Positions 16,909-64,000 of a stretch of DNA of 64,000 nt are shown here, in pieces. Source of the stretch: Nereocystis luetkeana. Taxonomy: Eukaryota; Sar; Phaeophyceae; Laminariales; Laminariaceae. A model generated the notes under the pieces. The model was not told where the DNA came from and made no database searches. It saw only the letters and a list, made by a program, of their open reading frames with translations. Position 1 is the stretch's first letter; the number at the start of each line of letters is the position of its first letter. Position numbers and translations under genes: made by a program. The stretch is from assembly GCA_031213475.1 (NCBI GenBank), contig JARUPZ010000006.1:3129501-3193500 (forward strand). Direction: 5' to 3'.

Positions 16909-17196
16909 TCAATCCCACTGTAAAGTGCAACCGCTGCATCTCCCGGCTATATGATGGAGACAGAACTTTGGAGGCAAGGTCGATTTTGCGACCGGCGACC
17001 ACAACACCTGTGCCGGCAGCGAAATAATCCTGAAGTGGCCCAAAGACTGTGAATTATGCGCCAGGCCTATCGACGTCCGCACCGTTACCTTCACGCTCGA
17101 GACAGGAGGTGGCGGTGAGTTGAGGTCTGTGCTTCTCTGTTGCTGTTGTTGTTGTTGTTGTTGTTGTTGTTTGTCGACCTTTAGAACTAAATCCAA
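16909..17196 (-). CDS. Alternative frame with polyglutamine tract, copy A
   Basis: A 95-codon - strand frame starts at ATG 17194 and has a run of 11 glutamines at residues 10-20 from the TTG repeat, then a Pro/Val-rich segment. The copy at 21546-21830 is the same apart from one fewer glutamine. It overlaps the + strand candidate exon, and at most one of the two is likely real. No domain was recognised. Confidence 0.2.
   Translation of the reverse strand: MDLVLKVDKQQQQQQQQQQQRSTDLNSPPPPVSSVKVTVRTSIGLAHNSQSLGHFRIISLPAQVLWSPVAKSTLPPKFCLHHIAGRCSGCTLQWD
16964..17114 (+). CDS. Candidate exon in repeat copy A
   Basis: This 151-base segment is preceded by 'gagacag' and followed by the strong donor 'gtgagt' at 17115. 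It is open in one frame, reading a G-G-K-V-D-F-A-T-G-D-H-N-T-C start, then SEIILKWPKDCELC and VRTVTFTLETGGG. The copy at 21601-21751 has the same length and sequence. Its residue mix looks like a real Cys-containing extracellular-type protein, but I recognise no family. The opposite strand is also open with a polyglutamine start, so the coding strand is unproven. Confidence 0.35.
17138..17171 (+). repeat. TTG/CTG trinucleotide microsatellite
   Basis: A run of TTG units with a few CTG units. The copy at 21776-21805 is one unit shorter, so the tract has changed length since the duplication. Confidence 0.9.
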
Positions 17197-17991
17197 GACA
17201 AAAAACGTACCTGGTACTAAAATAATAATGCCATTTGTTTATGCATTCCTGCGCCTACTGCCATTTGCTTTTGTGCTGCTGCTGCCGCTGCTACTGCCGC
17301 TGTTGTTTACAGCCCGCGTTTGTTTCCCCAACAGTGTCTACCGCCGCTGCTGCTGTTGTTGTTTATGCTGCTGCTTCTTTTCCTGCTGCTGTAACCCCGC
17401 GCGCCTATTGTCCCTGATGCTGATTTTACTTTGTACGCAGGCGTCGTTCGCGTTGTTGCTGTTGTACGCAGCTTTGAGTCGGTGTCTGCCGCCGCTGCTG
17501 CTGCAGCTATTGTCTGGGTTGTTGCTGTTCCCGCATGTTGTCTACCTTCAGCACTAAATACAAGACACAAATACATACCAGGTTCTACAGTAATTTCGAG
17601 TTTTGTCTTGCACACTACAGCAGTACGTAAAAAAATGTAAATGGATATTTTGTTTTTCTTGATACGAGCTCACACCGAGACAGGGGTATAGTACGCGTAC
17701 TGCCATTTGTATATGCGCTGCTGCTGCCGTTGTTTTTGTTTTGCACACTATGACAAACTTTGTTTTCCGAACAGTTTCCGTTGTTGTTTGCAGCCTGCGT
17801 TTCTTTCCACTCCGAAACAGTTGTCTACCGCCGCTGCTGCTGTTGTTGACACGATAACAGACAGGCGTTGAGTACACTACCACGTTTCCATGTTTTATGC
17901 TGCTGCCGACTCTGCCGTCGGCGTCTCTGCCGCGAAAAAAGACGTAAGGGTTTGCCAACATCATTCATCGCATCTCATTCCTATTTACCTT

Positions 17992-20611: not shown

Positions 20612-21600
20612 AACAGCTGTAATACATAAATACTACCTGCTTTTTCGGTCATTAGAACTGCTCTCTTGCGTCACCCTCGTCTGCATGTCCCACTGGTATT
20701 TTCCTTATACTAACTCAGGCTTGGATGTTAACAGGTGTACATTTGAGCAATTGCCCCAACTGCAGCACATACAACTGCAATTAATTGGTGGAATAGTTCA
20801 AACCAACCCACCAAATACGTATGTCTTCTCACACGCTACGCTTATGCCACTCCGGAGGGAAAACTTGTAAGCACAACTATAAATTCGTTTTCTCTGGTCG
20901 GTCGCCGTGGGGCCGTTTCGGTGGCCTTTGGCAAGACGGTCAGCCCTGATTCGCGAGAGCTTTGTACTATTCGCGAGTGGAGGGACTTTTCTGGAACAGA
21001 TTCAACAGGACTGCCGTTAATCTCAGCTGCTTTGGCCCGAAGAGACCGGCTATAAGACGGCATACATACGATAATAGTAGACCGATTATTTTTCTATTTT
21101 GTTCCAGAATAGGTTCAACAGGACTACGGGTGATTGGATTATTTGCGTGCGTGGACACATGTAGGCAGCATACGACGCGCGTCACGCTGTTGCTGCCTCT
21201 TCGTATACCGCTTGGCCAGTTGGCCTCCTGCTGGCGTTGCTCCTGCTCGTGCCGCTCTTGCTCGTGCCGCTCGTGCTCGTGCCGCTCCTTCTCGTGCCAC
21301 TCCTGCTGGTGCTGCTTTTGCTTTCGCTGCTTCTGTTGGTACCTTGTGCTCCTGCCGCTGGTGCTGCTCCTGCCTGGTAGATGGCATCTCCTGCTCCTGG
21401 TGGTGCTGCTTCTACAGAGTGGACTCCACTTTTTCCTGCTGCTGCCGATATTAAAGGTGCTGCCTTCAATACACCTCTGCCTCGCCCTCTTCTGACGGAT
21501 CTTGAAAGCCCATTTCGAACAGAACCCCCCTGTCCAAGTCCGTGCTCAATCCCACTGTAAAGTGCAACCGCTGCATCTCCCGGCTATATGATGGAGACAG

Positions 21601-21751
21601 AACTTTGGAGGCAAGGTCGATTTTGCGACCGGCGACCACAACACCTGTGCCGGCAGCGAAATAATCCTGAAGTGGCCCAAAGACTGTGAATTATGCGCCA
21701 GGCCTATCGACGTCCGCACCGTTACCTTCACGCTCGAGACAGGAGGTGGCG
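21601..21751 (+). CDS. Candidate exon in repeat copy B
   Basis: Same 151-base open segment as 16964-17114, with the acceptor 'gagacag' and donor 'gtgagt' conserved. Conservation here does not prove coding, because the flanking non-coding sequence is conserved as well. Confidence 0.35.
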
Positions 21752-23664
21752 GTGAGTTGAGGTCTGTGCTTCTCTGTTGCTGTTGTTGTTGTTGTTGTTG
21801 TTGTTTGTCGACCTTTAGAACTAAATCCAAGACAAAAAACGTACCTGGTACTAAAATAATAATGCCATTTGTTTATGCGCTATTGCGCCTACTGCCATTT
21901 GCTTTTGTGCTGCTGCTGCCGCTGCTACTGCCGCTGTTGTTTACAGCCTGCGTTTGTTTCCCCAACAGTGTCTACCGCCGCTGCTGCTGTTGTTGTTTAT
22001 GCTGCTGCTTCTTTTCCTGCTGCTGTAACCCCGCGCGGCTATCGTCCTCGATGCTGATTTTACTGTGTACGCAGGCGTCGTTCGCGTTGTTGCTGTAGTA
22101 CGCAGCTTTGAGTCGGTGTCTGCCGCCGATGCTGCTGCAACTGTTGTCTGGGTTGTTGCTGTTCCCGCATGTCGTCGACCTTCAGCACTAAATACAAGAC
22201 ACAAAACATACCAGGTAGGTACTACCGTAATTTCGAGTGTTGTCTTGCACACTACAGCAGTACGTATAACCAAAAACAAATGGCCATTTTGTTTTTCTTG
22301 ATACAAGCTCACACCGAGACAGGGGTATAGTACGCGTACTGCCATTTGTATATGCGCTGCTGCTGCCGTTGTTATTGTTTTGCACACTATAACAAACTTT
22401 TTTTCCGAACAGTTGCCGTTGTTGTTTGCAGCCTACGTTTCTTCCCACTCCGAGGCAGTCGTCTACCGCCGCTGCTGCTGTTGTTGACACGATAACAGAC
22501 AGGCGTTGAGTACACTAACACGTTTCCATGTTTTATGCTGCTGCCGGCTCTGCCGTCGGCGTCTCTGCCGCGAAAGGGTTTGCCAACATCATTCATCGCA
22601 TCTCATTCCTATTTACCTTTAGTGCTTTCTGCCTGTACAGCGCACGCCAACGCGATATTTCGAAACTGTTTTTCAAGGTGTTTTTGTCAAAATCAGGTGT
22701 GTCTGGCCGCTTTTCGGCCAAAATCAGTTACATTCTAAAAACAAGTACAAAACACACCCCAGGAGCGCTTCTATTGTCCAGGCTGACATCGTAACTGCTT
22801 TTGGCTAGAAAAGGCCCATTTTTGTCTCTTCTCTCTCTAGCTTCCAACTGATTTTGGCCAACTTTGAACAAATCAGAGGGGCCACATATATACACTGATG
22901 TTTCTCTCCGTATGCGTCTGCCCTCCCTCGGTTGAAATTCTTCTGCATTATTACGCAACGTATAAACTCTGTACTCGCACGTACACGTTGTACGTCAAAG
23001 TACGTTTTACATTAAGATGCATACATGTGTATTCTGGTTTCGTTTTTTTTCTTCTTTGGGATATGCGACGTGCTTCCGTTTTTGAATAGTTGCTGTGTCC
23101 TACTGCCGCTGCTTTGTTGTTTTCTATGGTCACAGCGGTCCATACATCACCATGGTCTTTATCTGCACCACCCCGCGTCGAGTTTGTCTCAGGTTTAGTA
23201 CGGCAAGATAATTTCGTGCCGAGCTGGCAGTTCCGCGAGGACGGTCAAGAAGATTTAAGCTGTCAACGGTGGGGGTGCGCCAGATTGAATACTCTTCTTG
23301 GCGCCCCCGCCGTCGCAGAACAAACGAAACCTATTAACAGTAACTCTCTGCAGGTCCAAGTGAAGCCCGTGGTATCTACACCCTAAGGAAAACTAAACGC
23401 CTTAGATTTTGGAGGCCATATATGTAACGCTTCTTTTTTTACCCGACTTTCATGGACAGAAGACCGCTCGTGGCGCGCGTTGTTTACTTGGTTTTAGTAT
23501 ACACCTGATTTTGGCTCAAACGAATCAGGTATAACTGATTTTGGCATTTGCCCTTTTCAAAGTCTTTGTCAGCTAAGTTCGTACCAAGTAAAATGTTTGT
23601 ATTCAACACGTCTTACATGTCACCTTTGTGCTGTCGGTCTGTTGTCTATAAACTATGTTGGCAG

Positions 23665-35110: not shown

Positions 35111-35215
35111 TTACGGGGGACCATAGTTAATAGGACCTCTGGTATAGACAAAAACCTATATATTTAACATTTTTTACTAACAATATTTGGTCCTATTAAC
35201 TATGGTCCCCCGTAA
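35111..35215. mobile_element. MITE, near-perfect copy 2 with TA target duplication
   Basis: A 105 bp element bounded by TTACGGGGGACCATAG and its exact inverse, with terminal inverted repeats of about 28 bp, an AT-rich centre and a TA on each side (35109-35110, 35216-35217). TA duplication and short inverted ends are typical of elements moved by Tc1/mariner-type transposases. It carries no coding capacity. It interrupts the LINE coding sequence. Removing it with one TA leaves the LINE frame in phase and collinear with the other LINE copy. Confidence 0.92.
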
Positions 35216-36550
35216 TAGCATAAGATGTAATGTGGTCTTCGTGCTTTCGTTTTCGCCAGCCGGTGCATCGGAGGAGCATCTTGTGGTGGACCTCCCGTAG
35301 CCGACCGTAATCATTCTTGCTCGGGCTCCAAGTAACGCAACCGTAGAGCAACGTTTCGATCACCTCGGCTATCAGCATTCGCACCTTCAGGCGTAAGCGC
35401 ACACCCGGGCGGTCATAGATTTTCATCCTATACCGTCCGAAGCATGCCCATGCCCTCTGGAGTCGACGCGTTACCTCGACACTTCCGCCCGTCCAATCTG
35501 CGCTGATAGCCCCGCCCAGATAGACAAACTCGGTCGTTTGTGTGTACACTTGGCCGGCTGCGGTGAAGGTGAACGGCCCGTTACCCCCATCTTTCGTTTG
35601 CAGACACATTATCTCCGTCTTGACCTCCGAGACCGTCAGGCCGAAAGCGGCACATGCAGACACAATCGCGGTGGTCATCCTCTCCAGGCCGTTGGGTGAT
35701 CTCGATACTATGCCTGCATCGTCAGCATAAAGCATAGCCCACAGTGTCTGGGCCTCTTTATCATTCTCCTGCCCGTGCCCTTCACCTATTCTTCTACTTC
35801 TTCTCCTGCTTTTGTTGGAGTTGCACCAAGCTGTCCGTGATGGCTTTATCAGCAGCGAAACGTTTCTCCACCACACGCAGCACTGCTGTAAAAAACATGC
35901 AGAACAACAATGGCGCGAGCACACACCCTTGCGCGTAGGCCCTGTTTCACGTCGAACATATCTGAGCACTCGCCGTCATCCAACCGCACGCATGCTCGCA
36001 TGCCGTCGTGGAATTGGCGGATAACGGTGAGCATTCTAGGTGCCACGCCAAAGCGAGCCAAGGCAGACCACAGGAGGATTCGGTGGACGGAGTCATAGGC
36101 TTTGGTGGGGTCGACAAAGCACATGAACAGACGAATGTCCTTCTTCCTGGTTAAATCCTGCAAGCCTCGCACCACGAACATCATGTCGACCGTCAATCGT
36201 TCTGGCCTAAAGCCGCACTGCTCCTCCGGCAGGATGCCTTCCCGTTCGCAATAGTCGCTGAGTCGGCGCGCGATGACTTTGAGGAGTACTTTGCCGACAT
36301 GCGCGACAAGGGAAATGCCACGATAGTTACCACACTCCGTCCTGTCTTTCTTCTAGTGCAGCACCTTAATCGTTGCATCCTTCCATTGCTGCGGCACGAC
36401 GCCTCCCCTCCACACAGCAACGATAATCTCGTAGAAGCTTCCCAAGGTGTCCGAGTCTCCCTCGTCGGCCAGGACTTTCAGAAGTTCAGCTGGGAGACCA
36501 TCAGGCCCAACCGCCTTGCGGTTCGCCATCGCCCTGATCGCGTCTTCCAC
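35196..36550 (-). pseudogene. Reverse transcriptase of the second LINE
   Basis: Reverse transcriptase domain of the element above. A TAG near 36354 replaces a codon just before the KKDR block. One extra base near 35931 shifts the frame at 'QGLRQGCVLAP', which survives only in the shifted phase. Downstream, the frame 35969-35196 is intact through YADD and the YLGG/LLYGC blocks until the MITE. Relative to the LINE at 11500-14580 the order is the same but the sequence is well diverged, so these are two families or two old lineages. Confidence 0.85.
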
Positions 36551-53000: not shown

Positions 53001-56000
53001 TATTCGCTTAAACGCAGACGAGGGATATTTACACAAAAGCAATCCAGTCGAGACGTCCATTAGCTGACGGGCAGAAAATAACACGATACCCAAATATAAA
53101 TCAGCTGCAGTTCATTGGTCGTTTCAGTTCTAACTACGTGAACGATCTGCGCTATACGAGTTGTTTCGTTATGGTACTATCTCTACGGGCACAGCAGCAG
53201 GACCATCAATAGAGTTTATGCATGTCGGGACCAAAAACTATCAATGGGAGTATGGTTCCGGGTTCAGCACTTCAACACCCGCCTTTCCTACCTCACACCC
53301 GCCAAACACATTTGCGTACTCTTGAAGTTACTTAGCGTTATAAGAATATACCTGATATCCTGTTAGGGATAGTATTCTCCAAATCGACGTGATATGCAGC
53401 TTTTACATACGCCGGGCGTCAGATGTCCTCGGAATGTTCCCCGGTATGACCCCTATGTTCGGGTAAATAACGCTGGATCATATGATTACACTGTGGCAGC
53501 AATTCTATCCGTACACCTCGGCGCAACTGTGCTCTTCGAGCGAATGAGTAACATATGACCTAACAAGGACCGATTACAGGACTAATTGACTACGATGAGG
53601 GTATATATAAACACACATTGCGTGGTCTACCTCTGTAATTACCAGTATCCCAGGGCATACACTCAGAACGTTTGATGTGTGACACTTAATACACCCCGAG
53701 GACTTTGTTTCCATTGAAAATCGTCTGACACGAACAGGCTGCATTCCAGACTAAACATGTTCAGAGCTAGGTACGCGGTGATCACGAGGGGGCAAACTTC
53801 AGCAGCCCATGTCCACCACATTAGAACGGGATCTGTCGCCGCCGTCACAAGGTCTGCCCCCGGAAGTCAGCGCTTCTACCATGCGTCATCAGTGACCCAT
53901 CATAGGTGAGATTAGGTTGGTAAACAGAAGGGAGATTACCTCGAACACCGGTGTCCGGAGTTGCTTTTGTTTGGGTGGTTTTTTTGTGTCGGGGTGCATT
54001 TTGGTGATCAGGGGTGAGAACTTTGTAGGTCACTGTTGGATGAACCATTGTGCTAGTATAGTTACCGTATTGAATGGAGCCAATTCTGTTACTCGAGTAT
54101 AAGGTTAAGGCGAGGAAAGCCACGACACGTAGGCAATACCCAACATCGGTTACTCCACAATGTACCCATGTGATTGAAGCGAGTGTTTCGGTTGTACCTG
54201 GTGCTACAGAAACCAATGAAAACAGAACGCTCAAGGCGTACTGGCGAAACTGCTCTTCATGAGTATCGTGAAGGACCCCCGGAGAGGCCACGATACTAGT
54301 GGGCTAAACCAAAACTAACACCACGATACACCCTGAAACTTGCGTGTCCGTCAATGCACCGGCGGCCGTGCACGTGATTGTTCTTCCGTCCCTTAGACAC
54401 TAACGTGAAAATATTTCTCGGCGCCACCGTCGGCAAAATTGTGTTTTCTCCTGCCCGACAAGATATTTCTGGTAGGATAGTAACTATATGCGCCGGCGGG
54501 GTATACCATTTCTTCCGCCCAACAAGACGTTTCCCAATCCTCAATAAAATGTACCAGAAACGTCGTAACAATCACCGGCACCGCACATACCTCGATGTAG
54601 CTTCAGCAACAATTTTGACAACCTATCAACTCGTTAGACGAATGCAAAACCATCCATTACGATTCTAGCCTACTGTGCAGGATCGGGGTATACTACAGCT
54701 ACTGAATATCGTACGTAGGTATCATAGTTGTATCATCCCTGAGTGGTCTTGATCACCAAGGGGATACTTATTTACCGACCTTATTGAGTGAATATTTGTG
54801 GAGTCGGTGTGGTGGCTCTGCGGCAGAGGGATCGCTTAATAAGCGGTATTCACAATAGCGTTCGTGACTGGACTTTCTACATGCACCGCTGTTCGGGGGG
54901 AGAGATACTAATTCGTAGTAATATTTCAACCAAAATGTCCTGCTTCTACGACGTCAAGGTTGCAGGGTGATGACGGCGCCGTATTGTTCATCCTGTGCCC
55001 GCGTACACCAAAGCACTCTATAGGAAACACTCGCACTACTTGAGGTCAAGTTCCGGCGGGAGTGAAAACACAGGAAACTTTGAGTCAGGACTATGAACTT
55101 TGTGGTACCGAATAGCACGATGCTTCCACGCAGTGTACTCTCCCCACCCGAGCATTAAGTGTGGCCACCAATAGATCGGCAGGAAACGGCGAGTGTTCAT
55201 GAGTTTCGCTTCGACCCTTCGAAACGTGTTCAATTTAGATCCTTGGCTGTGGACTTATGAGGACTCGATCAAAATACTGAGCGAGGGCGTTACCTGCTTA
55301 GAGCGAAATATGTTTCGCGTTTCACTGTATCTCCGAATATGAGTGTAGGATTACATCGGGGTGGTGCGCTGTAGCCTTGAGAAAAAACGGAATTAAGGTA
55401 GTTACCAGCCCATCTGGTAAAGTAGGTAATACTCTCTCGGGGAGTTGTAACTGCTATGCATTCGCGACCGTATTACTGCTACGTGCAGCTTATAAACAAG
55501 TGCAATGTCGCGGATTGACGGCACAAGGCCGTGAAGCTCAACCAACCATATATATCCACCGTTCGCCGAAAAGGCTTGAACGTTAAGCGTGTCCACAGCC
55601 GGGGTGACGGCGTGGGGTGGCCCATTGTCGGTGAGGTCGATCTGAAATAAATAAACTTGATTACGCAGTGGCAGAGGAAACATGTGGACCATACTTTTAA
55701 CATGTAGCGTTGAGCATATTAAGGGATACTCAAGTAGCACTCGGCAGCACACGTGTCAACCGTTCTTCACTTCGCCGCGGAAGCGCACATAGTCACCTAG
55801 ACACTCGAAATCCGGGAGAAGATTTTGTTCAAAGATACGACTCCTGCTGCTCTGCTGGGCTTGGGTGACACGACGCCATGTATGTGTGCAAAACCAAAAT
55901 CGATGTGCAGGTGGTATGACACCACCAAATCAAATATCGATAAGAAAGAGAGCTTGCAGCATATCATCCTCACATGGGTTTCACAGTAGGCGTTAACAGG

Positions 56001-56204: not shown

Positions 56205-56307
56205 GCGAGTACAAGGTGCGAGGGTTCGAAAGCTCCAAGAGGGATTTCAGGAGCACCTGAGGAGACCCGCATCGCACTCGTTGCAGACGGTACCTAAATC
56301 GCGATCT
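56205..56307 (+). other. Possible N-terminal extension of the HypX-like gene
   Basis: In phase with the proposed start at 56308, the sequence stays open upstream and follows a good acceptor, 'gtgctcttccacag' (56191-56204). It would encode RVQGARVRKLQEGFQEHLRR followed by PASHSLQTVPKSRS. It is basic and hydroxylated with few acidic residues, as in mitochondrial targeting peptides. If real, the true start is in an earlier exon. If not, this is 5' leader. Confidence 0.35.
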
Positions 56308-56388
56308 ATGCGCATCCTGTTCTTGACCAACGCCCACAACGGCATGAGCCAGGCTTTGTACCTCAACCTGAAGGAGCAGGGCCATCAG
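56308..56388 (+). CDS. HypX-like exon 1
   Basis: Encodes residues 1-27, MRILFLTNAHNG... to KEQGHQ, which aligns with the first strand and helix of HypX. The donor is CAG|GTAATC, phase 0. The ATG at 56308 is chosen because bacterial HypX starts at the equivalent MRIL. An upstream extension in frame is possible. Confidence 0.88.
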
Positions 56389-59300
56389 GTAATCCGTTGG
56401 CGATTCTATCGCGACAACGCAGAAAGGCTGGGGGTGACCAATCGGTGAAAATTTAATATCTTGAAAAAAACGGTAACGAGGCGTTCTACGATAGAGGTTC
56501 ACCCTACATTTTCTGAGGCTGCTCGTTTTTCGTAGCTTCATACCTCGCCCGAAATCTGACCTCAGCAAAAATCGGAATGCATCGTGGCGAAGAACCTCAT
56601 GGCCCAAGTCTACGAAACCTCACTTTTGTTCCTAAATCACGAGTGACATCGCGACGAGTTGGGATCAAGGGATCCCGTCTTTCAGAACAAAAAAATAGAG
56701 TGGAAATGTGCTACCGTCAACGAAGAACGGGTCTAACCTACTGTTGCATCTCGCGGCAGGTATTTCCGATCCGTTCTACGATACGATGTAGCACATTTCC
56801 GGTATTCTATTTTTTTTTCTGAAAAACGGGGTTCCTGGACCCCAAATCGTCGGAATGTCAATATTGATTCTAAAAACAAAAAAACGTTCTGTAGACTCGG
56901 GCCACGGGATTATTCGCCGCGATGCATTTTGCTCTTTGCTGAAGTCCGTTTTCGGAAGAGGGATGGAGCTCCTTCAGTGAAGAGTGTCAGAAACGTTAGG
57001 GTAAACCTCTGTCGTAAAATGACTCTTTCACACCTCCCGCTCTTTTATGTGTTTTCACCGTCTGACCATATGTACTAGGCGTTTGTAGAATCGCTAGACC
57101 ATTCACACTACTTAACGAGAGGCGAGTAACGCCAATGACCGGCTGTTTTAGTCGTCCCATAAGAATGAACCTAAGTCATCGACAGGGTTCGTGCGAGGTT
57201 TAACGATCGGGGTCATCGTCGAACGAATTTGTGTTTCCACTCGAAACCACGCGCGATTGTCTTAGATACCACGTATGTCCAACGATTCACATCATGAGGA
57301 CAAACATGTGTATTAGAGCGCGCAACCAGAGTAGGGTTATATTATCCAGCACACCATCATCGCTCAAACCATGCGATGGTTAAAACTGTATACTGGCGTG
57401 CTCGTCCCCGTTGGAATTTCACACAGCTGGTATGTGTGTCTGAAGAGAGTCCGACTGTAGTACCTCAAACCTTTTTTGTTGTTGTACGTCTCTCGAACAT
57501 GTTGGCTTTCGTGTTTACTGCATAACTTGTGGGACGTTCAGGTTATGCTGCACGTCGCTCGAGGGGAGGACGACATGCTGGCCGCCCACGACTCCTTCGG
57601 CCCCGACGCCATAGTGGCCCCTTTCCTGACAAAGCGCGTGCCGGAGCGCTTGTGGAAGAACAACAGTACCTGCCCCGTGCTCATCGTACACCCCGGCGTG
57701 CGCGGTGACAGAGGAGTCAGCTCCATCGATTGGGCGCTGAAAGGTGCGGGTAGGTGTTTACGTACTAAACGACAAGGGTGAGCAATATCAACCCACAGGA
57801 CATGGTGTTGACATACCGTTCAACGTTAAACATCACCCAGACGACGGCTTCTCCGATAGAAGTAACACAATTCCGCTAATATGTTGTCTGAATGACGGGG
57901 TTTCTGAACCCAAAATCGTCGGCATGCCGATTTGGTTTTGAAAACTAGCCTTAATGCATTCTTGGGACATATGTCATGGGATTGCTGTTCGGGATGCAAT
58001 TTCACTTGTGCCGACGTCGGTTTTCATGTGAGGTGTGGGACTCCTCTAGTGAAGAGCCTCAGGAAATCCAGAGTCAACTCCACTTGTGGAACGCCTCCGC
58101 CACTTGAATGATTGAGTCCTTCTTATGTACTCGAGTCCCTCTCTCACTTGGTCTCGGTTGTTTGAGCTCCACACACCATTTGCGATTGCTGTACTTGTTG
58201 AAGAATACGAGATAGCGTCATGGTTGGGTACAAAACCAAACAAGACCGTAAACCAATTTGGCACAGTTAGAAAAACACCCGGTTATTCCACATCTTATGT
58301 CTTGCTGAACACAAGCAACCACAAGCAACAGCCACGATGAATGTTTGGATACCATGGAAGACCTACTGCATGGTAGCGAGTCCATTTAAATTCTCACAAT
58401 ACGCGTGCATGTCATGTATGGTTTTAAAGAGCATCCGCACTGACCCAAGCGCTGAAGAGCACCCTTTTGGTTTACTTCGAAGGTTTCGTCGTGGCTCTCT
58501 GGTAATCTCTCTAGACACCCCCTTCACTTCGATAATGATTTACGTTTGTGAGTGGCAGACGAAGGTGCGTTTCGTCCCCACCCACGACGAGGTTTCAGCA
58601 ATGAGTTAGTTAGCATCAACAAATGCATTGTCATGCAGCCGTCGCTTGGTATAATTTGATGTCGTTCTCTGAAGTCAACCGATTACAGATTTATACGGAC
58701 GCATGCAAGCATGGTCATCTTGATTGTCTAGGACGTCTTGCAAATGTCGTGAATCTTAGGCCGTTCCGGGTTAAGGACGGATATAACGCCTGCTTTGTGA
58801 TTTTATCCTCGCGGAAAGATATGTTTGCTTGAACGTCAATACACGTGTTACCAGCGGACAGACATGTCCTCAATGGACGTGTTCTACAAGTAAATTCATG
58901 TTTTTTATGAATGTATTTGTCCCTGGCAAGACCGACAACCCTTTGCTATGTTGAGTGGGCACCTTATCCGATTTCTTGGGCCACAATACCTCTTTAAAAA
59001 ATCAAACTGCTGATCATTTCAAAGTATGTGTGGTACCAAAGGAGGACTATCTCCCGCTCACGTAGCTCTTGGGCTGCTCTGCTCTCGGAACGACAGTAGA
59101 CCCATGCATACCGCCAGGTTCCCCTGTGCTTCGCACATACGCCTAACCCACCACCCTCGATATTGTCGTGCTTTTATAGCCCGAACATCGTTCTCGACCG
59201 CGATGTTCTAAATATCGTTTCTTGCTGGATTTTACCCAGATTCTATGCCAGAGTGGGGTGTAACGATTCTGCAGGCAGACGAAGAGATGGATGCCGGAGA

Positions 59301-62300
59301 TGTGTGGAAATCGTGCAACTTCGCTGTTCCTCACTCGTCAACGCTCACAAAGTCTGCCTTCTACAACAAGGTACAAACTCACCGATTGTATTGTGGTCGG
59401 CCACACAAAGAATACATGGATTTTTACGTTTTGCCTTTCAAAGTCTCTGTCAGGTATCGTGGTTGACGGACCATGTTTCTTGGTCTTGATATGCACGCTG
59501 GGGTCGGCTTCGTTCGAGTAAATTTCTTGGAAATATAGGCCGGGAAGGTGTGCATGACGTCAAATAAGTTAGATCACAACCAGCATGGGTTTACTTGATG
59601 CGATAGCGACTGTGTCTCATGTGTCATACTAGTGGACGCAGGTCGTACCAATACCTTACGAAGTTCCGGTGGTCAACAAAGTGCCAGAACCACACGTGCT
59701 CATCGTTTACCCTAGACGAGGTGCATTAAGTCCCTATATGGTTCATACCCGTGGCTACGCGTTTGATTAGCCTGTCCAGCATTGCCGCTGTATGGAAGAT
59801 TTTTCGCGTGGAAAATAGGTCGGTAAAATATGTGGTAGTGTGACTTTTCCACCAAACGTGACCCAAAAAGTCATTATGTCGTATTGAAGTTTAAGGCGGA
59901 GTGCAACAACATCTTATGTTTATCTTGGTTGTACACATATATATAGCCTTGGAACATGTTTTCCATGTACAAATTGCAGCGTCCCTTGCTCCCACACCCA
60001 TTATACGTTAAACGTCTGAATGCCTGTGATTCTCTCACCATGCCCGTCGCCTCGAATGTAATGTTTTGTTTTTCTCGCTCCACTGCATGCATCCGCAGCT
60101 GTGTGTGCCAGCGGCTCTTGCTGGCGTCCAAGCTGCACTGGATAGACTCCAGCATGGTGTTCCTCCGCGGCCGTTGGATTACAGGTTATTATGATCGGAT
60201 GTTCAACTATTTTGGTAGATGCCGCCTGCTCCAAGACGTATGCCTCATACCTCGTATGCGTTTGTGGCATTTGCGCCAGTGCTTAAAGAGCCTTGGCATG
60301 AGCAAGAATCACACGTACGTGGTGGGTACGCGGTGTACAATGGAAAACGGCCAGGAAACCTCCCTGCACTCGCGCAGCCGACGTTTTTCCGACACAAATA
60401 CGGCACAAAGGCCCCCCTCAATCATCTCTCTACCGGAAATGTGTACGTCAACACGTGTCACCAAAACATTCGTGTAGAGTGGGGTGGATTGCTTGCACTG
60501 AACCGACCACAGACGCCATAAGCAATCGTACGGCCTGTGACGTATTGAACACATTCAATCCCTCAGCCTTTCCTACTTTACTCTCGCTGGTGTTCAGGCA
60601 TACCGATGTGATAGGTACCCTGAGGCCGACCATGAAACTGGCAGACCGTGCAGTGGATTGGGCTACCATGCCAGGGGAAGAAGCGGCACGAGTGGTGCGC
60701 TACAGTGACTCGAGCCCCGGCTGCCCCCACACATTCCGTGGCATTAAGTACCGCCTTTATGGTGCCCACACCGAAGGGAGGGGTGTTGACGATGATTGTC
60801 CCACCGGTGAAACGGAAATGGTCTTGAAGAGTGCGGCAGCTGAGCCCGGAGACCCCGTCGGTGAGACCTGTCTGTGGGGTTGCATTACAGTCACTGCTTC
60901 CTTATCCCGCCTTTTAGTGCGGTGGTTGCTTGGTTTCGAGATGTAGAATGTTTTTTCAACTTGGGAAGATTTTTCGGTGAACATCGAAAGACCTGGAAAC
61001 CACATATACCGATCGTAAATACGTTTTCCTGTAATTTGCCTGGCTTCGAAAGGGTATAATTTAGGTCTCATAGTTCGAAAACGAAAACGTCGTATACGTT
61101 ACTGCGGCGTACAATTGAGGATGATCGACACTGCGCGCGATGGACGCGGCGGGTGGAGTATATTCGTTTGACGTGGCCTGACCAATACGTGCATAGATCC
61201 GGAATGAAGCGTTGAATGTTTGTTTATGCCGCGTTGCTGCCTCGCATGGAAAACAAACATGTCGATATACGCCATTAGGGAAACGATGAAACCACAGGGG
61301 CCACATCTGGCACCTGAATTTTCGAACGGTGCTCCGAGCAGCATGTATTTTATTTACTCGCGGCATATAGGTTTCTACCGTTGAAACAGCGTTGTTGATA
61401 ACGGTGACCGTTCTAGCCACCTAACGGCTGCCGGTAGTCTGTGAGTCTGAACAGTTCCACACAATTTAAACGTACCGACCGCCAACTCAGCTATAATATA
61501 GATGTTACCCTCGAAGCTTGGCAAGCTCCACAGAGTCAGGCGACACAACGACGAATGCATCCCCGATATACACATACCACCTAACTCCATGCCGGGAAAC
61601 GTAATTTTTGTTTTTGATTAACACTAGGCAAGCGAAACGGAGCTGTTCTTTTCAAGTGCTCGGACGGGACTGGGCTTTGGATCTCGCACATGAGACGAAC
61701 CACCAATAGAATCACAAACGCCCTAGACCAAGACCAGGTTCCTTCGTTCAAGCTCCCGTCGACTTCCGTCCTGCCCAAGGACGTCGTGGATGGCCTGCCT
61801 TGTCTCCCCACACCTTCTCTCTACGTGCCCTTCGGCGAGCGACCATCTACGTTCCAAGAGGTACCTAACCGAAACACTCTTGACGACGAATATACTCGAG
61901 TAAAAGTCCGTTCGAAGATGAAGCACTACTCACAACATTTGAGCTTCTACTAAAAGCGTATATGTGGTAGGATCTCGCAAATGAAGCGGTACATTGATGG
62001 TGCGTGGTCACGCTACGCTACGAATTGCAAGTATGTATCGGATGTCGAGACCTGTGGGGATATTTGATAGGGGTGTGTTGATGGTGTTCTCATACTGAGC
62101 TTACTTGTAAGAAATATTTCCTGTAGTCACAAAACAGGCTGTACCAGAAGTACAGATCGACTGGTGAAAACTAATAAGTACGAACGTTCGAGCACGGTAC
62201 TATCAGTGCGCAAGGAAAACGCTACGATAGAGGTGTGGTAAGTCATTTCGCATCCCTTCTTAACGAACACAACAGCAACATATCCAAAGTGGCATATGAT

Positions 62301-63895
62301 CACCCGGAAAAAACGAGTACCTGATATAATACACAAAGAAGGGTGAATAATCACTCGGCCAAGTCGATTAATCACGAGGCAAAACAGATTGAACCAAAGT
62401 ATAGAACTGTATTACTCGTCCAGCAGTCCTCCTCAGCACAACAAGACGCCGCACGCCGTTTGTCGGGTGGCATGCAAAGTGAAATGTTTTGAACGCCCTC
62501 CTGTGCTTGCCGGCTCGTACTTCTCCGTGCTGGCGCTGAGCAACACCGGCCAGCTCTCGTCAAACGTTGTTTACGCATATCGTCATATATGCTAACACAG
62601 TTTTCTGTACGCAGAAGCACACACAACAGTAAGTAGCGCAACCATTGTTTTATGTGCCAGTGCACATCATAGTCTGACACATGTTTTCGGTGGATGCTGG
62701 ACAAGTTTTGAGAGTGAAAAATATACTGCCGAACTTAGGCAAATACCAATTGTTCAGTGGACACTTCGATTTCGAAAGTAGCGCATTTCATCCTTGACGA
62801 CGCAAACCCACGATGCATGGGAAAGACAAATATTTCTCAGACGCGTAGAGTAAACACTTTCGACGTATTTTTCGAAATACCACGTTACCCTTAGCATAGT
62901 TCCAATTCACTAAGTAGATGCTAACATTGACGTAGGCATATGACAGATAGTTCCTCGGGCACTCCAAATGGCCTTTAGCGCAGGGGTCTCCGTTCATGTC
63001 ACCCCTTAGTTTGCCTTTGCTTCCTCGGAATGGTTTGAGTGGCCGACCTTGCAGCTTCTGACATACATCGTGTAACAACCAACGCATTCAGAACAGTTCA
63101 GACGCGATGCAAAGTGCCGGTAGGTCACGCAGCGCGCCGTCAGATATGGTGGATGACAAAGTATTGGGTCTAGTATTAAAAATGGTTTGGCTTCTGTAGC
63201 CTCTGCGACTTGGCCTTCACCTCTCACGGGCAATTCATTCACAAACGGTTTCGAGGTGGATGCCTACTCCGGTCAAATCTCGCGGGAGGGGTTACATGCC
63301 TATCTACGCCAAGCAGGAGCGTGCACCGGTCGGGCTCCGAGGGTCTTTAGTCGAGAACCTCGATACAGTATCCGGAACATGCGAATGAGGAACAAAGACA
63401 AATCCCAAACCGATTCACAGTCCGATATTCTAGGAATACAAAAAGAAAAATCGTAAAACACAACAAATGCGGGTACTCAGACGATATTGGGGCATTCAGC
63501 CTACACAAAGTTGGCTAGAAAAGCGTTGACCGAAACTGTCCTACTCCCATCGTAGCATGCGTCTGGTCGGGTGTTGTACCTTCACTTTTTTCACCACTGT
63601 TAGAGTTGTGTGACGCATGCAGCACTTTCGGGGCGTCGTTCGTCGCTCTCCCGTGGCCTGAATTACGCCCCGCCATGCACAGGTGTGGGTGTCCGTCGAC
63701 AACGGGATCGCGTATGTGCACAGCGACTTCTACAACGGGGCCGCGAGCACCTCTCAGTGTGAACGGCTGACCGCGGCCATCCAGGAGGTCGGCCAACTGG
63801 ACACCATCAAGGTCGTGCTCCTCATGGGCGGCGAATACAGCTACGGAAACGGCATAAACCTCAACACGATCGAAGCCAGCGCAGACCCGGACATG
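56308..63895 (+). CDS. HypX/HoxX-like formyltransferase-decarbonylase, 3'-incomplete
   Basis: Seven exons joined by GT-AG introns give 1203 bases (401 codons) with consistent phases throughout. The gene then runs off the window; bacterial HypX is about 550-580 residues. Residues 1-~130 form the formyl-transferase domain: start MRILFLTNAHNG, then PDAIVAPF, IVHPGVRGDRGVSSIDWA with His77, and WGVTILQADEEMDAGDVW with Asp110. His and Asp are the positions equivalent to the formyl-transferase catalytic pair. Residues ~160-330 are the linker, with LDY, LRPTMKLADRAVDW and LWISHMR. From ~331 the enoyl-CoA-hydratase-like domain begins, with SDFYNGAASTSQCERL and VVLLMGGEYSYGNGINLN. In bacteria this protein passes formyl from N10-formyl-tetrahydrofolate to CoA and releases CO for [NiFe]-hydrogenase cofactor assembly. 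Its role in a eukaryote is unknown. A ~20-residue acidic/polar insertion around 225-248 appears lineage-specific. Confidence 0.93.
56681..56823. mobile_element. Small inverted-repeat element in intron 1
   Basis: TTCAGAAC...GGAAATGTGCTAC at 56681-56714 is mirrored by GTAGCACATTTCC...TTCTGAA at 56788-56823, giving terminal inverted repeats of about 34-36 bp around a ~73 bp core. It is non-coding. It looks like a MITE or a long hairpin. It is unrelated in sequence to the MITE family at 35111. Confidence 0.7.
56817..57013. repeat. Segment of intron 1 repeated in intron 2
   Basis: About 200 bases align with 57889-58086 in the next intron: 'acggggttcctgga.ccc' / 'acggggtttctgaaccc', then 'aaatcgtcgg.atg', a 'ggcca.gggattat' block, 'gatgca.ttt.ctctt' and 'ctccttcagtgaagag'. 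Roughly two thirds of positions match by eye. The direct orientation suggests either an old intragenic duplication or two insertions of one element. Confidence 0.65.
57542..57749 (+). CDS. HypX-like exon 2
   Basis: Acceptor 'gggacgttcag' and donor GCGG|GTAGGT, ending in phase 1. Encodes residues 28-96, including SFGPDAIVAPFLTKRVPERL, IVHPGVRGDRG and SSIDWAL. A second possible donor (AAAG|GTGCGG, 57744) also keeps phase but would drop two residues. The chosen site fits the family spacing and donor consensus better. Confidence 0.92.
57889..58086. repeat. Segment of intron 2 related to intron 1
   Basis: Partner of 56817-57013. The weaker sequence just before it (57850-57888) resembles the right end of the inverted-repeat element in intron 1, so the repeated unit may include that element's edge. 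Confidence 0.65.
59252..59370 (+). CDS. HypX-like exon 3
   Basis: Acceptor 'ttctatgccag', donor AACAAG|GTACAA. Encodes residues 97-136: EWGVTILQADEEMDAGDVW, then a T-K-S-A-F-Y-N-K end matching the family 'K.SLYR' segment. It carries the Asp of the MDAG motif. Ends in phase 0. Confidence 0.93.
60099..60184 (+). CDS. HypX-like exon 4
   Basis: An 86-base exon too short to stand out as a frame. Acceptor 'gcatccgcag', donor TTACAG|GTTATT, ending in phase 2. It encodes residues 137-164, a helix (ALAGVQAALDRLQHG) and PPRPLDY, equivalent to the family 'AV.AVL.AV.RF..G...PEPLDY' segment. Phase and residue count match both neighbouring exons exactly. Confidence 0.88.
60598..60860 (+). CDS. HypX-like exon 5
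   Basis: Acceptor 'ctggtgttcag', donor GTCG|GTGAGA, ending in phase 1. Encodes residues 165-252: HTDVIGTLRPTMKLADRAVD, a helix with EEAARVVRYSDSSPGC, YRLYGAHTEG, an unusual acidic insertion, and PGDPV. It forms the folate-domain C-terminal part and linker. Confidence 0.93.
61628..61860 (+). CDS. HypX-like exon 6
   Basis: Acceptor 'gattaacactag', donor CAAGAG|GTACCT, ending in phase 0. Encodes residues 253-330: GKRNGAV, DGTGLWISHMR, VPSFKLPSTSVL, VVDGLPCLP and RPSTFQE. The order and spacing match the HypX segment just before the hydratase-like domain. Confidence 0.92.
63683..63895 (+). CDS. HypX-like exon 7
   Basis: Acceptor 'cgccatgcacag', donor GACATG|GTGAGA. Encodes residues 331-401: the first strand (NGIAYVHSDFYNGAAST), helix SQCERLTAAIQEV, and VVLLMGGEYSYGNGINLNTI, followed by an EASADPDM end. 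SDFYNGA and the MGG..SNG-like block are HypX hallmarks within the crotonase fold. Remaining exons lie beyond 64000. Confidence 0.95.
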
Positions 63896-64000
63896 GTGAG
63901 AAATCGATCCTCGTGGTTTGCGTACAAACACTGCCAAATGCACGTGTTCATGGTGTTTGACCCACCTATCCTGCACGTGACCAGCGCGATCCAATTGTCA

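Follow-up and report, generated by a model that had tools for sequence, protein, structure and literature searches.

A spliced nuclear gene of Nereocystis luetkeana joining HypX to FolD, and a predicted folate-fed route to carbon monoxide

The window, a stretch of 64,000 nucleotides (G000:C6:3129501-3193500) from an assembly of 465 Mb in 1987 contigs, contains the beginning of a spliced nuclear gene, whose product joins a complete HypX to a C-terminal FolD (methylene-THF dehydrogenase/cyclohydrolase). Judging from its domains and conserved residues, this HypX::FolD fusion probably makes CO from the folate one-carbon pool, with no hydrogenase served. The gene comprises 19 exons and 929 codons plus the stop on the + strand, at 56308-78463 in window coordinates and thus past the window end (G000:C6:3185808-3207963 in the assembly); its remaining part was read from the 20 kb adjoining the window.

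Gene structure and copies

The exons and neighbouring features, in window coordinates, are:

53757..53905, + strand: tentative first coding exon (MFRARYAVITRG...), mitochondrial-presequence-like, with a fitting phase and the donor GTGAGA; one of seven candidates
56205..56307, + strand: upstream in-frame part of exon 1, an open frame after an AG acceptor at 56205
56308..64000, + strand: window part of the HypX::FolD gene, which continues to 78463
56308..56388, + strand: exon 1, starting at the conserved Met (MRILFLTNAHNGMSQ); belongs to the formyl-transferase-like domain at the N-terminus of HypX; copy 2 has a counterpart
57542..57743, + strand: exon 2, with IVHPGVRGDRG and the putative catalytic His (Aquifex His74) and Asp (Asp80)
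59240..59370, + strand: exon 3, with EEMDAG and a putative catalytic Asp (Asp109)
60099..60184, + strand: exon 4, HypX part; exon also in copy 2
60598..60860, + strand: exon 5, C-terminal (OB) subdomain of the formyl-transferase
61628..61860, + strand: exon 6, HypX part; exon also in copy 2
63683..63895, + strand: exon 7, where the enoyl-CoA-hydratase-like domain begins (SDFYNGA, VLLMGG)
beyond the window end, + strand: exons 8-11, which complete HypX (HYK...GGEYW, with the Tyr416 and Glu426 equivalents)
beyond the window end, + strand: exons 12-19, FolD with the stop codon
71425-71530, + strand, beyond the window end: exon 15, with the FolD motif KDADAC

The seven window exons have GT donors and AG acceptors (exon 1 opens at ATG) and their phases agree; in the whole gene 17 introns have GT-AG borders, and intron 10 has GC-AG. 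All seven were recovered in order by unspliced tblastn with Trichoplax HypX (best E 2e-17), the weakest being exon 1 (E 0.030) and exon 4 (E 0.085); the reversed window, used as a control, gave nothing below E 3.8 with any of three queries, and a single off-target match was obtained on the forward strand (E 2.6). A preliminary 405-aa splice of these exons matched HypX of the PDB over nearly its full length (E 1.8e-49).

The preliminary description of this DNA, made from its letters, had proposed a spliced, nuclear-type HypX gene with seven exons here: the exons, splice sites and phases are confirmed, they are in frame, and the motifs it named (IVHPGVRGDRG, the Asp of EMDAG, LDY...LRP, SDFYNGA and VLLMGG) are all found in them, but its count of 401 residues has to be corrected to 403 codons. 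Stop codons in the missing 3' exons, which by its own terms would have spoken against it, are absent: 12 further exons run open to the terminal stop. Bacterial contamination, which it had also dismissed, is ruled out by the 18 introns, by the length of the contig (13.4 Mb) and by a paralogue with matching splice sites.

Upstream of the conserved Met, the stretch 56205..56307 is probably coding and part of an N-terminal extension; the Ascophyllum protein P0121 has 75 residues ahead of the equivalent Met, and copy 2 is open for about 50 codons before its own. The candidate exon at 53757..53905 gives an alignment score of 36 with the region upstream of copy 2, while 20 shuffles gave 31 or less.

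Elsewhere in the window, reverse-transcriptase-like open frames at 35196-36352 (- strand) are probably a retroelement, with RVT_1 in 35196-35975 (- strand) at E 1.2e-6, just under the Pfam cut-off. Two near-identical open stretches (WRQNFGGKVDFATGDHNTCAG...), at 16955-17557 and 21592-22098, form a direct repeat, about 4.6 kb apart.

Copy 2 of the gene lies on the same contig and the opposite strand, about 141 kb downstream (C6:3370140-3348623, L083-L085); it was modelled by projecting the window-gene exons onto it one by one and extending each match to the full exon. The projected ends show an AG acceptor at 18 of 18 introns and the donor GT, or GC at intron 10; exon 12 has 9 bases fewer, intron lengths mostly differ between the copies (in some cases widely), and the reading frame stays open until a stop that lies some codons beyond the end of the window gene. 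The proteins of the two copies are 83.6% identical over 926 aligned codons, with dN 0.095 and dS 0.705 by NG86, 0.086 and 0.92 by YN00, and a dN/dS of about 0.13; the NG86 ratios of the two parts, 0.16 for HypX and 0.10 for FolD, indicate purifying selection on both at the protein level. Partial or degenerate copies occur at C22:3098009-3107905, C10:817466-818799 and C6:3218056-3218642, some with stops or frame breaks, suggesting that the HypX::FolD family has been amplified and has partly decayed.

The two parts of the protein and their fusion

Five Pfam domains score over their cut-offs: Formyl_trans_N, Formyl_trans_C and ECH_1 (PF00551, PF02911, PF00378) in the HypX part, THF_DHG_CYH and THF_DHG_CYH_C (PF00763, PF02882) in the FolD part. 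Residues 1-585 align full-length to the Aquifex aeolicus HypX structures, with an E of about 1.5e-86 (1.6e-86 for 6j0p), and among solved structures HypX outscores the next by about 254 bits; the search with the spliced protein that the preliminary description had recommended thus has HypX as its best match and rules out an ordinary formyltransferase or crotonase. In the alignment to 6j1f, Aquifex His74, Asp80, Asp109, Tyr416 and Glu426 correspond to His77, Asp83, Asp112, Tyr461 and Glu470 of the window protein. These positions are free of substitutions both in the eukaryotic clade described below (n=123: His in 122 with 1 gap, the Asp80 position in 122 with 1 gap, the Asp109 position in 123, Tyr and Glu in 117 each with 6 gaps each) and in the remaining 189 rows (189, 189, 189, 187 and 187, with 2 gaps in each of the last two). 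The algal protein therefore has the two-domain build and the five proposed catalytic residues by which the HypX/HoxX family is recognised, and shares them, together with full-length similarity, with HypX/HoxX of A. aeolicus and Cupriavidus necator (R. eutropha), the residues being compared with Aquifex.

The roles of these residues were put forward by Muraki et al., who, in the accessible passages of their paper, assign the transfer of the formyl group onto CoA to His74, Asp80 and Asp109 and the decarbonylation step to Tyr416 and Glu426; they present this as a proposal, direct experimental results being then still lacking, and report that in R. eutropha mutation of the equivalents of Tyr416 or Glu426 leads to a HypX-negative phenotype (PMC6802093). 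A 2025 review, in the part available, states that HypX has been shown to make CO from N10-formyl-THF via formyl-CoA (PMC12134894); bacterial HoxX is also treated in the accessible part of PMC3927592.

The FolD part matches FolD structures with a best E of 1.6e-53 (chains 5o22 and 1b0a) and covers positions 1-115 of 115 of PF00763 and 15-158 of 160 of PF02882. The Lys, Gln and Asp positions of the folate site, whose roles are presumably those of the human MTHFD1 residues, are invariant in an alignment of 15 fused proteins. The catalytic and NAD(P)-binding domains and the folate-site residues of FolD are present in the fusion protein. In the matched FolD structures one motif reads KDVDGF, for which the brown algal proteins carry KDADAC (KDVDAC in P0123); residues in their nucleotide-binding part also depart from those structures, so that the FolD activity could be altered.

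Compared with FolD/MTHFD, the algal FolD shares PF00763 and PF02882, but it forms the C-terminal part of a HypX fusion and its KDVDGF motif is altered. In C1-THF synthase (MTHFD1) a FolD domain is likewise part of a larger multifunctional one-carbon enzyme, whereas in the algal protein the partner of FolD is HypX and not a formate-THF ligase. The 10-formyl-THF dehydrogenase (FDH/ALDH1L), which oxidises the formyl group to CO2, has a related formyl-THF hydrolase domain, from which a phosphopantetheine thiol receives the formyl group; in the algal protein a crotonase-like domain and CoA replace the dehydrogenase and carrier domains.

Three protein searches gave 293 proteins (the best 120 of each, overlapping), and a profile built from the FolD part of the window protein and of 12 fused proteins revealed a FolD part in 20 of these 293, nearly complete in 16 and partial in 4 (P0001, P0147, P0282 and P0290). 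The fusion is shared by Ascophyllum nodosum P0121 (979 aa, 74% identical), P0122 (EukProt) and P0123 (metagenome), and is also found in the dinoflagellate Togula jolla (transcriptome, P0126), in the transcript-style entries P0128, P0247 and P0251, and in the bdelloid rotifers Rotaria (P0129) and Adineta (P0281); the deposited Undaria-type model P0001 spans HypX and FolD, with some exons missing.

That two neighbouring genes have been misread as one, HypX ending with FVYKVI at a stop just past the exon 11 donor, is very improbable. Left unspliced at 67378 the frame does stop after two codons, and in-frame Met codons lie near the FolD start; however, the linker SPTLSTTPTHMVREA stands at the start of exon 12, and the Ascophyllum protein P0121 contains it within a single chain (P0122 nearly so); copy 2 retains the same exon 11-12 junction. 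Transcript-style proteins of other lineages also carry both domains and the conserved linker columns, Lys651, Thr658 and His661 being invariant in 15 of 15 aligned fused proteins; since Togula P0126, P0128, P0247 and P0251 hold HypX and FolD in one protein, the join is not a gene-model artefact there.

As the source of the fusion, a folD neighbour of bacterial hypX was considered and rejected: in the flanks of 80 loci no FolD ORF reached E 1e-5 (lowest E 0.003; some contigs are short). In the kelp genome further FolD matches lie at C19:2559575 and C6:9223752-9225667, and the surrounding 10-20 kb gave no match to HypX; the genome thus probably has FolD besides the fused one.

Distribution, phylogeny and hydrogenase context

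Among the matches listed, HypX is named in cnidarians and other organisms, namely Hydra, Nematostella, Oculina, Montipora, Actinostola, Branchiostoma and Bradysia, as well as in Tubulanus, Owenia, Pinctada, Sinanodonta, Potamilus, Ceratodon, Calypogeia and Chara, and further in Trichoplax, Plasmodiophora and Hypsibius; it is unfused in Hydra, corals, Branchiostoma, Trichoplax, bivalves, a moss and Chara. Relatives are thus already catalogued as database entries, from Ascophyllum, from Undpi1, which we take to be Undaria, and as animal 'HoxX-like' proteins. Neither a paper on eukaryotic HypX nor an assay of one was found in the literature searched, whose scope left out most subscription journals and bioRxiv preprints. 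The preliminary description was right in calling the gene HypX; the join to FolD, the existence of copy 2 and this wide occurrence in eukaryotes had escaped it.

Trees were built by FastTree from 312 rows and by IQ-TREE from 55; P0001 (Undaria), a model lacking exons, had been dropped beforehand, and 19 of the 20 bacterial loci picked were included. One FastTree clade of 123 rows (local support 1.0) contains every eukaryotic-labelled row: 34 rows bear an organism name, all of them eukaryotes, 6 are EukProt or transcript-style entries and 83, with the window protein, are unnamed; the 8 labelled bacteria and the 19 bacterial loci all lie outside it. The IQ-TREE split between bacteria and eukaryotes has support 100/100, so the phylogeny against bacterial HypX suggested earlier places the sampled eukaryotic rows apart, in a sample that grew out of eukaryotic queries (P0131 in the case of the loci) and from which closer bacteria could be missing. 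In the IQ-TREE, the window protein groups with Ascophyllum, P0122 and P0123 (100/100), followed by Togula and P0289 (96/89). In the best tree the fused forms do not come together, but a single clade of fused forms (p 0.169) and a single clade of unfused forms (p 0.43) both withstand the AU test. P0131 (845 aa) and P0290 (626 aa, with a partial FolD) also join HypX to FolD and are placed among bacteria in the tree, apparently representing an independent fusion.

A search of the genome for the large subunit of a [NiFe]-hydrogenase gave 0 matches; it ran exon by exon, which can miss split genes, and in its control the subunit was found in 5 of 14 genomes, 4 of them over the cut-off. The earlier expectation that such a hydrogenase would be missing agrees with this result, and a use other than hydrogenase maturation, also put forward then, is the better reading. 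Unlike bacterial HypX/HoxX, the algal protein is nuclear-encoded, spliced, fused to FolD, a member of a separate eukaryotic clade and found in a genome where the large subunit was not detected; in bacteria 51 of the 80 GTDB loci nearest P0131 carry HypE, HypD, hydrogenase large subunit or HypF ORFs in their flanks, families that were recognised by eye in flanks of which some are short.

The other 29 of the 80 bacterial loci have no recognised hyp or hydrogenase ORF in their flanks (L003, L005, L007, L015, L047, L064 and L081 among them), and the genera concerned include Paenibacillus, Peribacillus, Lysobacter, Kordia, Marinomonas and Andreprevotia. Judging from these flanks, bacterial HypX may likewise have roles unrelated to hydrogenase.

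Proposed route to carbon monoxide and its possible uses

In the proposed route the C-terminal FolD part would oxidise 5,10-methylene-THF with NAD(P)+ and then hydrolyse the product to 10-formyl-THF; the formyl-transferase domain of HypX (His77/Asp83/Asp112) would formylate a tightly bound CoA, and the crotonase-like domain (Tyr461/Glu470) would decarbonylate formyl-CoA to CO and free CoA. The net reaction would convert methylene-THF, NAD(P)+ and water to THF, CO and NAD(P)H, with no ATP needed, and CO would be the released product, serving as a signal, as a gas or as an ATP-free way of unloading one-carbon units. The gene structure, the fusion, purifying selection on both domains, the conserved catalytic residues and the eukaryotic clade are observed, whereas catalysis, channelling between the domains, the use of the CO and a mitochondrial location are inferred. 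The fusion of producer and consumer, found also in P0131, argues that the flux from one-carbon units towards CO is coupled. In bacteria HypX supplies CO to a hydrogenase; no report of the release of free CO in quantity was found in the literature searched, and we know of no CO production in the animals and plants that have a HypX gene. As to location, at least 4 Arg/Lys and no Asp/Glu occur in the first 30 residues of 21 of 47 eukaryotic-labelled proteins (unnamed fused and incomplete ones counted) and of none of 10 bacterial-labelled ones; Hydra P0235 lacks such a start, and a mitochondrial location of eukaryotic HypX is no more than suggested.

The same domains could also dispose of formyl groups, methylene-THF being turned into formate via hydrolysis of formyl-CoA and THF recycled, with little or no CO and a purpose like that of 10-formyl-THF dehydrogenase or PurU. 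The kinship of the N-terminal domain with the hydrolase domain of 10-formyl-THF dehydrogenase and the scattered occurrence in animals, plants and protists, which fits a metabolic role, speak for such disposal; yet the Tyr416 and Glu426 equivalents are unsubstituted in all rows and a simple deformylase is not obviously in need of either, and we consider it rather unlikely. Less probable still is that the CO becomes a ligand in some unknown metallocofactor of eukaryotes or in a cryptic hydrogenase-like enzyme, even if the supply of CO to a metal site is the sole HypX role named in the available part of the 2025 review (PMC12134894). The hydrogenase search in this genome counts against it, and the FolD fusion would suggest a high flux over trace cofactor synthesis. 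We also know of no Fe(CN)2CO-dependent enzyme in these eukaryotes.

If CO is indeed made by the fusion protein, gas-filled organs are one place where it may be used. Serine is the precursor of siphonophore CO, and a 1962 study, by its title, reportedly tied the siphonophore gas gland to folic acid derivatives. Hydra, a hydrozoan as siphonophores are, has an unfused HypX, and the fused form is found in Ascophyllum, which bears air bladders. To our knowledge rotifers, moss and bivalves have no gas floats; since HypX occurs in them, float filling cannot be its general role. In their accessible passages, the pertinent papers describe CO as secreted by the gas glands of siphonophores (PMC3916360, PMC6820529), which are hydrozoans (PMC6820529), and bull kelp bulbs as high in CO (PMC9601103), and those passages name no enzyme for the CO of float or bulb. 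The main text of the 2026 Nanomia genome paper has no carbon monoxide, HoxX, formyl, folate, hydrogenase or gas gland, and no named siphonophore protein is among the HypX matches listed (the best 120 of each search).

Eukaryotic HypX, whose chemistry would fit, is a candidate source of the CO of siphonophore floats and kelp bladders, which is a lead and not a proof. Only tentatively, a wider proposal can be made, in which HypX would be a dedicated eukaryotic CO synthase fed by folate, in several lineages fused to the enzyme that provides its substrate, and would lie behind the CO of siphonophore floats in its unfused form and of brown algal bladders in its fused form, with a signal as its product maybe elsewhere. 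The known eukaryotic route to CO is haem oxygenase; if the proposal is true, a folate-dependent CO synthase would be the second, and this suggests that the animal proteins labelled 'hydrogenase maturation factor HoxX-like' would need renaming.
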